A stretch of DNA of 64,000 nucleotides from Nocardia miyunensis NBRC 108239 (GTDB lineage: Bacteria; Actinomycetota; Actinomycetes; Mycobacteriales; Mycobacteriaceae): the NCBI RefSeq assembly GCF_001613065.1, contig NZ_BDBQ01000008.1:1-64000 (forward strand), read 5' to 3'. Both the position numbers and the translations under genes were made by a program. Shown piece after piece: positions 36,135 through 47,209 of this stretch (position 1 is the stretch's first letter; each line of letters opens with the position of its first letter). Under the pieces are notes generated by a model. That model did not search any database. It had not been told where the DNA came from and saw only the letters and a program-made list of their open reading frames with translations.

Positions 36135-36154
36135 TCATGGACACGTGTCTGGAC
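36135..36154. promoter_or_regulatory. GGACACGTGTCC-type operator before cyp51
   Basis: TCATGGACACGTGTCTGGAC contains GGACACGTGTCT, 11 of 12 bases identical to the perfect palindrome at the TetR gene (38236-38247). It lies 34 bp before the cyp51 start codon. Confidence 0.65.
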
Positions 36155-36339
36155 GGTACTACAGAACTCGAAGCGGGACAACCCCGGCTCGGATGGCGGA
36201 CCGTCGCCGGGCGACCGCACACGTCAGCGTCCGCCGGAATCGTCGCTCGGGGTACGAGGCGCTTTTGAGATTTGTCGGCGATTTCGCCTGAAAGTGACGG
36301 TCAATCCTCACTGGGATACTCAATGACAGGGTCGAAGGT

Positions 36340-36819
36340 ATGACTCCAGATGGCATCATCGAATTCCTGAGCGGTCTCGACAACGTGCTGACCATGCGGC
36401 CCGGTCCGGGCGACGGTTCGCCCGAGATCAGCTGGGGCGATACGTTCTTCTACTACTCGGGCGAAGGCGGCATTCCGAGTTCGGCGCAGCCGTTCGCCAC
36501 GATCGTCACCAAGAACTACCCGGGCGACGAGGCATCGCACCTGGATCGGCCGGGCGCGTTCCGGGTGAACATCGCCGCCGGGCGCGCGGAGTTCATCCGC
36601 CGGGTGGGCCGCGCGCCACGCGAAATCAACGGTGCCCCAGTCGATTACGCCCTGGAGGACACCGTGCTTCCACATCCGGTGTACGGCGCGGCGGGCTGGC
36701 TGGCCGTGGTGAATCCGGGAATCCGCACCGAAGCCGTCACTCATGATCTGCTCCGGTCTGCCTACGAACGGGCCCGCTCGCAGTACGAACGACATACCGA
36801 AACAGGCCGGGGCCGATGA
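36340..36819 (+). CDS. DUF6194-family protein
   Basis: This 159-aa protein has the pattern of the DUF6194 family: PDGIIEFLSGLDNV at the start, PEISWGDTFFYYSGEG near residue 28, PFATIVTKNYPGDEASHLDRPGAFRVNIAAGR near 50-82, and VLPHPVYGAAGWLAVVNPG near 108. The family has no known function; the composition is that of a small cytoplasmic protein. It stands alone. Confidence 0.8.
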   Translation: MTPDGIIEFLSGLDNVLTMRPGPGDGSPEISWGDTFFYYSGEGGIPSSAQPFATIVTKNYPGDEASHLDRPGAFRVNIAAGRAEFIRRVGRAPREINGAPVDYALEDTVLPHPVYGAAGWLAVVNPGIRTEAVTHDLLRSAYERARSQYERHTETGRGR

Positions 36820-36993
36820 GTTCCGCAGCGGTCGCCATCACCATTCGGAAACCGCCACCCGGCCGACCGGAAGCCTTCGCCTGCTGCTTGCGCGAGATCC
36901 TCGACGGCAACTGAACTTCCTTGTACCGGGACCCGTGCCGGATCGTCCGCACGATCCGGCATCCGGGCGATGCCGCCCTCTAGAATTCGACCC

Positions 36994-37617
36994 GTGTCAC
37001 CGATCTTCGACTGGGCACGCCCGGAGAACGTGCAACCGGAGCCGATCTCCGTCGACATCTGGCGTGAGCTCCCCGAGGAGTTCTGCCGCTTGGTGGAGGT
37101 CGTCAACGGGGATGCGGTGCGGTGCGAATCGCCGACCCGGGCGCATCAGAAGGCGGTGCATCGGTTGGTCGGCATGTTCGAGGACGCGGCGCGGGAGTTC
37201 ATGTCGGAGGATTCGTCGGCCGGCCTGGACACCAATCACGACTTCGATGTGGTGCTCTGGGAGGTTCCGCGGGCGACCATCCGGCGTCCGGATGTCGTCT
37301 TGTTCGACTGTGTTCCGCCGGATGTGCGCCCAGTGCCCGCGCGGTATCTGAAGATCGTCGTCGAGGTCATCTCGCCCAGTCATGTGAAGACCGACCGACT
37401 CGAGAAGATGTGGGAGTACGCGGCCGCCGGGATTCCGTGGTACTGGCTGGTGAGTGTGTCGGACAGTGCGGTGACCTCGATCGAGACCTATGCGCTCGAT
37501 CATGGCGTCGGTCACTACCGGCAGGTGCATCTGCTCAAACCGGGTACCGGGTTCGCGGTGGATCTGCCGATTCGGATTCAGCTCGATTGGAATCGGCTGA
37601 GCGATCTCGTGCTGTGA
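36994..37617 (+). CDS. Uma2-family (DUF820) putative restriction-endonuclease-fold protein
   Basis: This 207-aa protein has the Uma2/DUF820 PD-(D/E)XK fold. It shows CRLVEVVNGDAVRCESPTRAHQKAVHRLV near residues 31-59, the metal-binding Asp in TIRRPDVVLFD near 98, IVVEVISPSHVKTDRLEKMWEYAAAGIPWYWLVS (E-x-x-S-x-x-x-x-x-x-D-x-x-x-K pattern) near 119-152. Uma2 proteins are abundant in actinobacteria and cyanobacteria and their role is unclear. GTG 36994 is chosen because it gives the usual N-terminal length; ATG 36970 is in frame. Confidence 0.82.
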   Translation: MSPIFDWARPENVQPEPISVDIWRELPEEFCRLVEVVNGDAVRCESPTRAHQKAVHRLVGMFEDAAREFMSEDSSAGLDTNHDFDVVLWEVPRATIRRPDVVLFDCVPPDVRPVPARYLKIVVEVISPSHVKTDRLEKMWEYAAAGIPWYWLVSVSDSAVTSIETYALDHGVGHYRQVHLLKPGTGFAVDLPIRIQLDWNRLSDLVL

Positions 37618-37644
37618 GTTTCCCGGGACTTTTCGGGCCGAATG

Positions 37645-38202
37645 TCAGTCGGTGAGGACCTGGAGGGCGGATTTCTCGAGGCGGTCGGCGATTTCGGCGT
37701 AGGAGGCGTAGCCGACTCCCGCGCGGACCAGGGCCCCCGCGTAGAGCAATTCCAGGGTTTCGACGATATCGAGGTCGGCGTCGGGGCCCAGGGCCGCGAG
37801 GAGGCGTTTGCGGATTTCGGTGCCGATTCGGGTGCGCAGGTGGGAAACGTCCGGATCGGTGCCCAGTAATGCGCTGGTTACCGCGCCCGCGAGGGCCGGT
37901 TCGTCGTTGACGAGCATGGCGATCTGACGCAACACCGCGACGACGCGCCGGGTGGGGTCGGTGAGGCCGTCGATGGGCGGCTGGGTGGCGGCCAGCCGCC
38001 GCCAGAACACCTCGGCGACCAGATGCTCCTTGGAGGAGAAGTACGTGTAGGCGGTCGCCGTGCCGACGCCCGCGGTGGCCGCGACCATGCGCACGGTCAG
38101 ACCGGCGAAACCCTCTCGCGAGAGCACCTCCAGCGCCGCCTTGGTCAGCCGGTCGACGGTGTCGGCCTGTTTCTCGGTGAGGCGGCGGCGGGTAGCCTCC
38201 AT
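37645..38202 (-). CDS. TetR-family regulator, candidate controller of the cyp51/CYP123 regulon
   Basis: This 185-aa TetR protein has its HTH near residues 10-58 (DRLTKAALEVLSREGFAGLTV, MVAATAGVGTATAYTYFSSKEHL) and a helical ligand domain with LELLYAGALVRAGVGYASYAE near 150. A perfect palindrome CGGACACGTGTCCG lies 33 bp before ATG 38202. A GTG at 38241 would put the operator inside the gene, so ATG 38202 is preferred. The same palindrome is found before cyp51 and in the SDR/CYP123 promoter, which makes this the best candidate regulator for those genes. Ligand unknown; a sterol or acyl-CoA is plausible. Confidence 0.88.
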   Translation of the reverse strand: MEATRRRLTEKQADTVDRLTKAALEVLSREGFAGLTVRMVAATAGVGTATAYTYFSSKEHLVAEVFWRRLAATQPPIDGLTDPTRRVVAVLRQIAMLVNDEPALAGAVTSALLGTDPDVSHLRTRIGTEIRKRLLAALGPDADLDIVETLELLYAGALVRAGVGYASYAEIADRLEKSALQVLTD

Positions 38203-38234
38203 ATTCACCGCGGGCGGCTCTGCGGAAAGGGGAT

Positions 38235-45984: not shown

Positions 45985-46733
45985 GATCGGATGATCTGTC
46001 CGCCGTCGACGTTCAGGATATGGCCGGTCACCCAGCTCGCCTCGTCCGAGAGCAGGTACAGGCACGCGCCGACCAGATCCTCCGGAGTTCCCATGCGCTT
46101 CAAGGGAAGTCGGTTCACCATGTCCTTGACCATATTGCCCGGGGTGACGGTCTTGGTGGCCTCGGTGTCGATCGGGCCGGGCGCGATGGCGTTGATCCGG
46201 ATCTTGGAGCCGCCCAGTTCGGTGGCCAGCTGCTGGGTCAGGCCGTTGACCCCGACCTTGGCCAGGCCGTAGAACCCGGAGTACAGCCAGGCGGCGGTGG
46301 AGGACTGGTTGACGATCGAGCCGCCGCCGTCCTTCGACATCGGCTGCCACACCGCGCGCGTCATGTTCAGCGCGCCGTCGAAGTTCACGCTCATGAACTT
46401 CTTGTAGTAGTCCCACGGGACGGTCAGCAGCAGATCGAGCTTCATATCGCCGTAGATGGCGGCGTTGTTGACCAGGTGGTCGATCCCACCGAACTCGGCG
46501 ACGGTGAATTCGGCCAGTGCGGTGGTCGACTCGGGATCGGAGACGTCGACGCGGTGGAACGCGGCGGTGCCGCCGTCGGCGACGATCTGCTTGGCCACCT
46601 CCTCGCCCTTCTCGGCGTTCAGGTCGGCGACGACGACCTTCGCACCCTCGGCGGCCAGCGCCTTGGCGTAGACGGCGCCGATACCCTGCGCTGCGCCGGT
46701 GACGATCGCGGATCGTCCGGTGAAACGGGCCAT
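45981..46733 (-). CDS. SDR-family oxidoreductase
   Basis: This 250-aa classical short-chain dehydrogenase has the cofactor motif TGAAQGIGAVYAKAL near residue 12, NNAAIYG near 90, the active-site Ser in IVNQSSTAAW near 141, YGLAK (Y-x3-K) near 155, and a C-terminal GHILNVDGGQIIRS. An AGGAG ribosome site precedes ATG 46733. It is the first gene of the minus-strand operon SDR-6PGDH-CMD-FAD-LLM and faces CYP123 across a 546-bp divergent promoter with two palindromic operator sites. It is the family equivalent of Rv0769, from memory. Confidence 0.9.
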   Translation of the reverse strand: MARFTGRSAIVTGAAQGIGAVYAKALAAEGAKVVVADLNAEKGEEVAKQIVADGGTAAFHRVDVSDPESTTALAEFTVAEFGGIDHLVNNAAIYGDMKLDLLLTVPWDYYKKFMSVNFDGALNMTRAVWQPMSKDGGGSIVNQSSTAAWLYSGFYGLAKVGVNGLTQQLATELGGSKIRINAIAPGPIDTEATKTVTPGNMVKDMVNRLPLKRMGTPEDLVGACLYLLSDEASWVTGHILNVDGGQIIRS

Positions 46734-46934
46734 GGTGAAAACTCCTCTGCAGCAGATTGTTTCGGCTTGTGCGGCGGTCGCGATCAGTGGTGCTCGGCGG
46801 ATATTCGCCGAATCCCGCGCGCCGAGCGTGCGGGCGCTCGGTCACGAATCCGCGCACGCGGCCCCCGCGCCGATGTCGTGCGTCGTCGACCGCACACCTG
46901 CGTCGTTCGCTCGCTCACCGGTAGCTCCCATGCT

Positions 46935-46954
46935 GTCTGGACACGTGTACGGAC
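46935..46954. promoter_or_regulatory. GGACACGTGTCC-type operator, SDR side
   Basis: GTCTGGACACGTGTACGGAC is an extended palindrome (8 of 10 base pairs match across its centre) with the core GGACACGTGTAC, one base from the site at the TetR gene. It lies about 200 bp before the SDR start, within the divergent SDR/CYP123 region. Confidence 0.65.
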
Positions 46955-47098
46955 TATATGGTCGAAGTCGCTGCCAACGCAAGAACCTGTTGCAGTTTGC
47001 CTGTGTGGGCGCGGGGGTCGGTACCGGTGCCCGGCTGGATGCGGGGTGATGAACGTGTCGGGGTTGCGGGTGCGTTCGCCGGTGGCGGCGATGGAACG

Positions 47099-47124
47099 AC
47101 ACTTCGGCCGAATGGCCGAAGTGT
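47099..47124. other. Hairpin in the divergent SDR/CYP123 region
   Basis: ACACTTCGGCC (47099-47109) pairs perfectly with GGCCGAAGTGT (47114-47124) across GAAT. There is no U-tract. Between the two operators it may be a transcription roadblock, a binding site, or the end of a short transcript. The rest of the 546-bp region (46734-47279) has no gene I can support. Confidence 0.5.
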
Positions 47125-47189
47125 GGAACGAAAATCTCGAAGGCGGGAAAATTCGAGAAGCATTGTCGCCGGGGTCTGCCGGTGGTACG

Positions 47190-47209
47190 GTCCAGACACA
47201 TGTCCAGCT
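47190..47209. promoter_or_regulatory. GGACACGTGTCC-type operator, CYP123 side
   Basis: GTCCAGACACATGTCCAGCT holds AGACACATGTCC, 10 of 12 bases identical to the perfect palindrome at the TetR promoter, and keeps the outer GTC/GnC flanks seen at 46935. A further half-site (CGTGTCT) follows at 47211-47217. It lies about 70 bp before the CYP123 start. Confidence 0.55.

Follow-up and report, generated by a model that had tools for sequence, protein, structure and literature searches.

A predicted operator abutting a putative −10 box joins cyp51 to putative sterol-degradation genes in Nocardia miyunensis

What CYP51 activity means for the physiology of mycobacteria is described as unclear in passages of PMC6469627, since they have no complete pathway of sterol biosynthesis. 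With which genes, then, is cyp51 controlled? A locus of Nocardia miyunensis NBRC 108239 raises this question directly: in the 64,000-nucleotide stretch that we analysed (hereafter the window; assembly GCF_001613065.1, contig NZ_BDBQ01000008.1, positions 1-64,000, forward strand), a preliminary description had proposed that a palindrome links cyp51, a tetR gene, an SDR operon and a CYP123 gene. We find that a shared, operator-like site does join these four, through a composite motif that exceeds chance and tracks TetR orthologues. We assign a probability of about 0.78 to the reading that the four sites are operators at which TetR-type repressors block cyp51, tetR, the SDR operon and the CYP123 operon, units that likely form a route of scavenged 14-methylsterols into catabolism.

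A scan of the window for the 12-mer GGACACGTGTCC at up to two mismatches returned exactly four sites, with the coordinates and mismatch counts first described (36139-36150, one mismatch; 38236-38247, none; 46939-46950, one; 47194-47205, two). A perfect CGGACACGTGTCCG is present at 38235-38248, and each site falls between likely genes. The palindrome by itself, on which the proposal had been built, proved to occur at random density: shuffled windows averaged 6.2 matches, with four or more in 88 of 100, and at the same cut-off the 10.5-Mb genome held 354 matches versus 477 for the reversed pattern. The evidence lies instead in the fusion of the palindrome to a predicted −10 box. All four sites share the oriented 20-mer TAnnnTCCRGACACRTGTCC (with one mismatch at the SDR site), in which the predicted −10 box abuts the palindrome and faces cyp51, tetR, the SDR operon and CYP123; of this longer motif, the preliminary description had noted only 'partly conserved GTC/GAC flanks'. 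At up to one mismatch, TANNNTCCRGACACRTGTMC gave 4 sites in the window versus 0 in 40 first-order Markov windows, and 11 sites in the genome as a whole (reversed control, 0). Reversed controls were not empty everywhere, with three matches in total in the other 59 genomes of the same 60-genome scan and three in a four-genome scan at up to two mismatches. The other perfect palindrome of the genome (C55:104593), which is enclosed in a predicted gene of 3956 aa and does not have the TA of the −10 box, was set aside as a chance occurrence.

The composite motif was also conserved across genera. We assembled the loci of the best 80 of at least 353 confirmed relatives of the window TetR and aligned their tetR promoters by the 12-mer alone, thereby avoiding circularity; every one of the 75 distinct promoters had TAnnnT at −8 to −3, no more than 2 had it in any single one of 20 other frames, and again no more than 2 had it on the mirror side. 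At up to two mismatches, these loci held 223 sites (reversed pattern, 0), an enrichment to be expected of loci picked via TetR. Only one of the 223 lay inside a predicted gene (random places, 79%), and all 214 sites with a next gene faced that gene on the same strand (random places, 52%), the other nine being excluded for want of a next gene within the locus. Among gene matches passing identity and length limits, with 200 or 150 bp of upstream sequence, sites at this cut-off preceded 88 of 89 TetR, 38 of 40 aldA, 22 of 29 CYP123 and 32 of 64 CYP51 genes, and the reversed pattern had no match upstream of five gene families. Target names in the loci are approximate, some first genes behind a site having been assigned from partial matches (SnoaL, CMD, LLM). 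A survey of 201 family genomes found 99 copies of the exact 20-mer TANNNTCCRGACACRTGTCC, spread over 65 genomes (reversed control, 0): 47 copies lay 10-43 bp upstream of a TetR orthologue and another 7 lay 29-37 bp upstream of cyp51, all on the same strand as the gene, with the remaining 45 elsewhere. Nearly all (95 of 99) were within 25 kb of a TetR orthologue from a list of at least 150 TetR places. All 65 genomes belonged to the 131 with TetR (best E ≤ 1e-30), and none of the 70 without (best E worse than 1e-30) had a copy (Fisher P = 4.7e-16, relatedness of genomes being ignored).

The arrangement of the predicted target genes also bears on this reading. In Rhodococcus (L209, L210), the genes for TetR, CYP123, SDR2, CYP51, ferredoxin and 8,14-Bsr (a predicted bacterial sterol 8,14-reductase) form a tight same-strand run in that order, with one site before tetR and a second before aldA-SDR1. 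In the window, CYP123-SDR2-ferredoxin-8,14-Bsr keep the Rhodococcus order, but cyp51 and tetR, both with a site of their own, are found on the opposite strand at a distance of 9-11 kb. Of 119 cyp51 genes in the family set, 81 had a listed tetR up to 6 kb ahead of them in the same orientation, and in 71 of these cases the distance was 2.0-2.1 kb. A site at up to three mismatches (a looser cut-off than in the CYP51 count above, with filters of the same kind) lay 7-31 bp upstream of cyp51 in 36 of 36 Nocardia rows and in 1 of 28 rows from other genera, the latter amounting to about 21 distinct loci because some recur (for example, L072/L203/L210/L224, or L062/L204/L209); in the sole such case (L232, genome G089), cyp51 stands 72 bp behind tetR. 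CYP123 genes not behind a close tetR had their own site in 22 of 23 cases, and those behind tetR in 0 of 6; the only exception among the 23 is that of M. shimoidei, where CYP123 follows the more distantly related TetR. SDR1 had its own site in only 2 of 43 cases, since it usually follows aldA, and the leader before the window SDR1 may be the place of a lost aldA. Compared with Rhodococcus, then, the run is broken in Nocardia and cyp51 has moved out, the separate units each holding a copy of the site. The aldA promoter sites themselves (L126:10327-10346 and others) often read TATATTCCGTACACCTGTCC or nearly so, departing from the consensus at the same places, and are possibly a weaker class of operator.

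Table 1. Predicted sites and genes of the four units in the window, with the basis of each assignment.
Feature	Position	Strand	Details
Composite site before cyp51	36139..36158	-	TACCGTCCAGACACGTGTCC; predicted −10 TACCGT plus palindrome; 29 bp before GTG start
Composite site before tetR	38236..38255	-	TAGCATCCGGACACGTGTCC; 34 bp before start
Composite site before SDR operon	46939..46958	-	TATAGTCCGTACACGTGTCC; 1 mismatch; 206 bp before SDR start
Overlapping weaker match, opposite-facing, SDR gap	46931-46950	+	3 mismatches to RTGTCC form
Composite site before CYP123	47186..47205	+	TACGGTCCAGACACATGTCC; 69 bp before ATG at 47274
cyp51, sterol 14-demethylase P450	34749..36110	-	Best solved relatives Cyp51B1 (7tef, 777 bits) and Rv0764c (1e9x)
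tetR, TetR-family, predicted repressor	37645..38202	-	TetR_N 50.7 bits, cut-off 24
Rest of SDR run: HIBADH-like dehydrogenase, CMD, FAD oxidoreductase, LLM oxidoreductase, GT4, methyltransferase, protein without Pfam match	39128..45984	-	Same-strand
SDR1, first gene of SDR operon	45981..46733	-	PRK07774, 445 bits, cut-off 303
P450, CYP123-like	47274..48485	+	p450 model; family name from preliminary description and synteny, not from model
SDR2	48533..49339	+	PRK07775, 433 bits, cut-off 260
Ferredoxin	49339..49530	+	Longer frame 49225-49530 scanned
SnoaL-like protein, predicted 8,14-Bsr	49584..50135	+	Y36, Y42, Y77, Y79, D132, D135
ORF without Pfam match	50129-51373	+	Probable end of CYP123 operon
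AMP-binding ligase	51411-53018	+	Probable end of CYP123 operon

The products of these units (Table 1) bear on what the regulon may do. The window CYP51 is related by sequence to solved bacterial CYP51 enzymes, and homologues of the CYP123-like P450 stand after tetR in Rhodococcus and inside the cyp51 cluster of M. shimoidei. Homologues of the ferredoxin lie directly behind cyp51 in both, so the ferredoxin is a predicted CYP51 partner. The SnoaL-like protein has all six pocket residues given for 8,14-Bsr in passages of PMC13277303, at a constant offset of −1, and the same six recur in 37 of 37 homologues of the locus set; the regulon thus likely rejoins CYP51 with its ferredoxin and the next enzyme. 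The run behind SDR1 has gaps below 100 bp and is therefore predicted to be one operon. Homologues of the genes that end it (39128-42154) form a GT4-methyltransferase-toroid-like run in M. shimoidei, with a site in front (L208:4552-4571), a putative glycosyl and methyl transfer branch. No match to squalene epoxidase (PF08491) turned up in the N. miyunensis genome, a result on which we do not rely because the model also matches the Escherichia coli and Caulobacter controls and oxidosqualene cyclase was not searched.

The regulon is not confined to this locus: 7 of the 11 sites lie outside the window. Among these are sites upstream of a CYP125, of a further CYP123 and a further TetR, and of an acyl-CoA dehydrogenase pair and an aldehyde dehydrogenase, the genes around genomic sites having been called by a rough script. 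The second CYP123, the second TetR and the CYP125, each with motif sites, are at C101, together with an Rv0768-type aldehyde dehydrogenase (TIGR04284, 894 bits, cut-off 775) whose site has two mismatches and is not among the 11. At C145, the acyl-CoA dehydrogenase pair has a site and a third TetR has a two-mismatch site, and the aldehyde dehydrogenase with a site is at C89. One single-mismatch site (C1:167438-167457, also L128:7439-7458) is far from all three TetRs.

Which TetR would bind? The regulon had been placed under the protein encoded at 37645-38202, and the link to this type of regulator holds up, since the motif tracks its orthologues; the evidence does not single out this one protein, as two paralogues adjoin the motif too. 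The genome has three such TetRs (100, 67 and 65% identical to the window TetR), those of C101 and C145 next to versions of the same motif before their own genes. In the recognition region, the C101 protein is identical to the window TetR and the C145 protein has two changes, and both fall in a nine-row clade without the window TetR (in a midpoint-rooted tree with unsettled bootstrap); cross-regulation is accordingly likely. We consider it unlikely, though a rival to be taken seriously, that the window sites are bound mainly by the C101 or C145 TetR, or by all three redundantly, with the window TetR not the main regulator. The shared recognition regions and the motif before both paralogues' genes speak for this, but the window TetR gene, which lies among the putative targets, has the perfect palindrome; orthologues of this TetR, and not just the paralogues, have a site in 80 of 80 loci at up to three mismatches to the 12-mer; and the same motif is found in species with a single close TetR copy, such as the Rhodococcus of L062 and L072 (next TetR match 28% or 27%). 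Solved TetR structures matched the window TetR weakly (best 35.7 bits) and gave no clue to a ligand. Elsewhere, five genomes of one genus (G140, G154, G179, G211 and G240) have a pair of inverted TetR copies separated by about 18 kb.

Two further readings, both improbable in our judgement, do away with these TetRs. One takes the element as the promoter consensus of an alternative sigma factor rather than a repressor site, which would account for the −10-like TAnnnT and for its always facing a gene. However, the most strongly conserved part is the palindrome downstream of the −10 box, and the element occurs only in genomes with TetR, mostly near tetR. The other, equally far-fetched, is that the known sterol repressor KstR controls these promoters. 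The system described here resembles the KstR regulon, through which a TetR-family protein of related bacteria governs the degradation of sterols and lipids. Matches to the KstR consensus, which we take to be TNNAACNNGTTNNA, are exact at 32728 and 32862, before CYP125, and one with a single mismatch lies at 46981-46994. Yet the nine matches to this presumed consensus in the window include none of the four sites, in agreement with the claim that the motif differs from that of KstR, and the window TetR was rejected as KstR by the NF033703 model (50.9 bits, cut-off 280). Beside this, we note that the CYP125-type P450 of the window (32918-34153) has the two presumed KstR matches just upstream (32728-32875), and that its C101 paralogue has the TetR composite site instead. 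That a reader simply picked out chance matches, as the unremarkable density of the bare 12-mer might suggest, has next to no credibility given that simulated windows and the reversed controls of the 201-genome exact scan and the 80 loci yielded no composite 20-mer, and that this 20-mer is conserved across genera.

There is a close precedent: in 2019, a comparable motif with its regulon was put forward for a mycobacterium (PMC6593523). According to passages of that paper, in Mycobacterium sp. VKM Ac-1817D a 'motif X' before phytosterol-induced genes is tied to G155_05115, called an Rv0767c orthologue, and the regulon comprises 14 operons, 12 of which rose more than 3-fold on phytosterol. As here, that system has a TetR with a palindromic motif near its own start, along with P450s, SDRs, aldehyde dehydrogenases, a putative isomerase and further TetR genes, and our motif likewise stands before the regulator's own gene and before cyp51-, cyp123- and aldA-type genes. 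The fused −10 box, the split operon with a site for each unit and the three paralogues are features of the Nocardia case that are absent from those passages. Passages of other papers report GAC and GTC enriched at Rv0767c sites (PMC10312376) and the Rv0767c motif in a less significant class (1.2e-14; PMC4482099).

The syntenic M. shimoidei locus, where a tetR lies beside cyp51 in the gene order reported for Rv0762c-Rv0771 in a passage of PMC10470581, has similar palindromes, GGACACATGTCC and GGACAAGTGTCC, in its tetR/aldA gap. The window TetR is 71% identical to another M. shimoidei TetR and 49% identical to the one beside cyp51 there, which the tree (midpoint-rooted, bootstrap not settled) places far outside. 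Judged by synteny, the window TetR was accordingly rejected as an orthologue of Rv0767c and appears, on sequence grounds, to be a paralogue of the Rv0767c type. The two exact sites of M. shimoidei both belong to the locus of the more closely related TetR, one preceding tetR and the other a GT4 gene.

For the enzymes, the closest parallel is the sterol 8,14-reductase published in 2026, where passages describe a CYP51 and 8,14-Bsr pair with a ferredoxin in Mycobacteriales and cite lanosterol conversion by a Mycobacterium (PMC13277303). The enzyme pair and ferredoxin are the same as here; the text of the paper nowhere mentions TetR, whereas here a shared predicted operator ties genes that have become separated by 11 kb. 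A limited literature search by title and abstract found no paper on this operator in Nocardia or on its joining of CYP51 to 8,14-Bsr.

How might such operators work? The sequences themselves show the sites and the way they face, their conservation and link with TetR, the order of the genes and the pocket residues; the function of the −10 box, repression, the ligand, the extent of the operons and the enzymes' roles and pathway are inferred. TAnnnT fits the actinobacterial −10 box, so the palindrome would begin about 4 bases before the transcript start and cover about −4 to +8 of each transcript. We infer from this spacing that binding would stop initiation and that the repressor would limit its own level. 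TetR-family repressors (the window TetR, perhaps with its two paralogues) would bind the palindromes and block transcription of the four units, and a ligand, likely a sterol or sterol breakdown product, would release all of them together. The units would then supply CYP51, the ferredoxin, the predicted 8,14-Bsr acting after CYP51, the two SDRs and the second P450. A bolder version, to which we give slightly less than even odds, makes this a regulon dedicated to methylsterol catabolism, in which a 14-methylsterol, or a product of it, would release TetR-type repressors from −10-fused operators and induce CYP51, the ferredoxin, 8,14-Bsr, CYP123, a CYP125 and the Rv0768-type aldehyde dehydrogenase together, each operon fragment in Nocardia having gained an operator and the repressor having been copied three times with one DNA code kept.

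Several observations weigh against the operator reading. Genomes and loci are related by descent, so their counts are not independent, and 66 of the 131 genomes with TetR lack the exact 20-mer. The three paralogues share the motif, which leaves the binder unfixed, and 2 of the 11 genomic sites (C101:40475 and C1:167438) face no clear gene. The single-mismatch KstR-type match in the SDR/CYP123 gap is 23 bp from the composite site, making double control possible there. From the literature, passages of PMC6593523 state that most putative regulon genes were not raised in M. smegmatis or R. jostii, and passages of PMC10470581 that the related mycobacterial block falls in expression together under another signal, with an ArsR-type regulator named.

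If the four sites are operators, a shared control element reunites CYP51 with its likely ferredoxin and the next enzyme after their separation, which points to a catabolic role and would tie the CYP51 of such bacteria to the breakdown of scavenged sterols. The analysis names the genes and promoters for assay, and the contrast between Nocardia and Rhodococcus offers a clean natural case in which an operator is found wherever the split operon has a separate unit.

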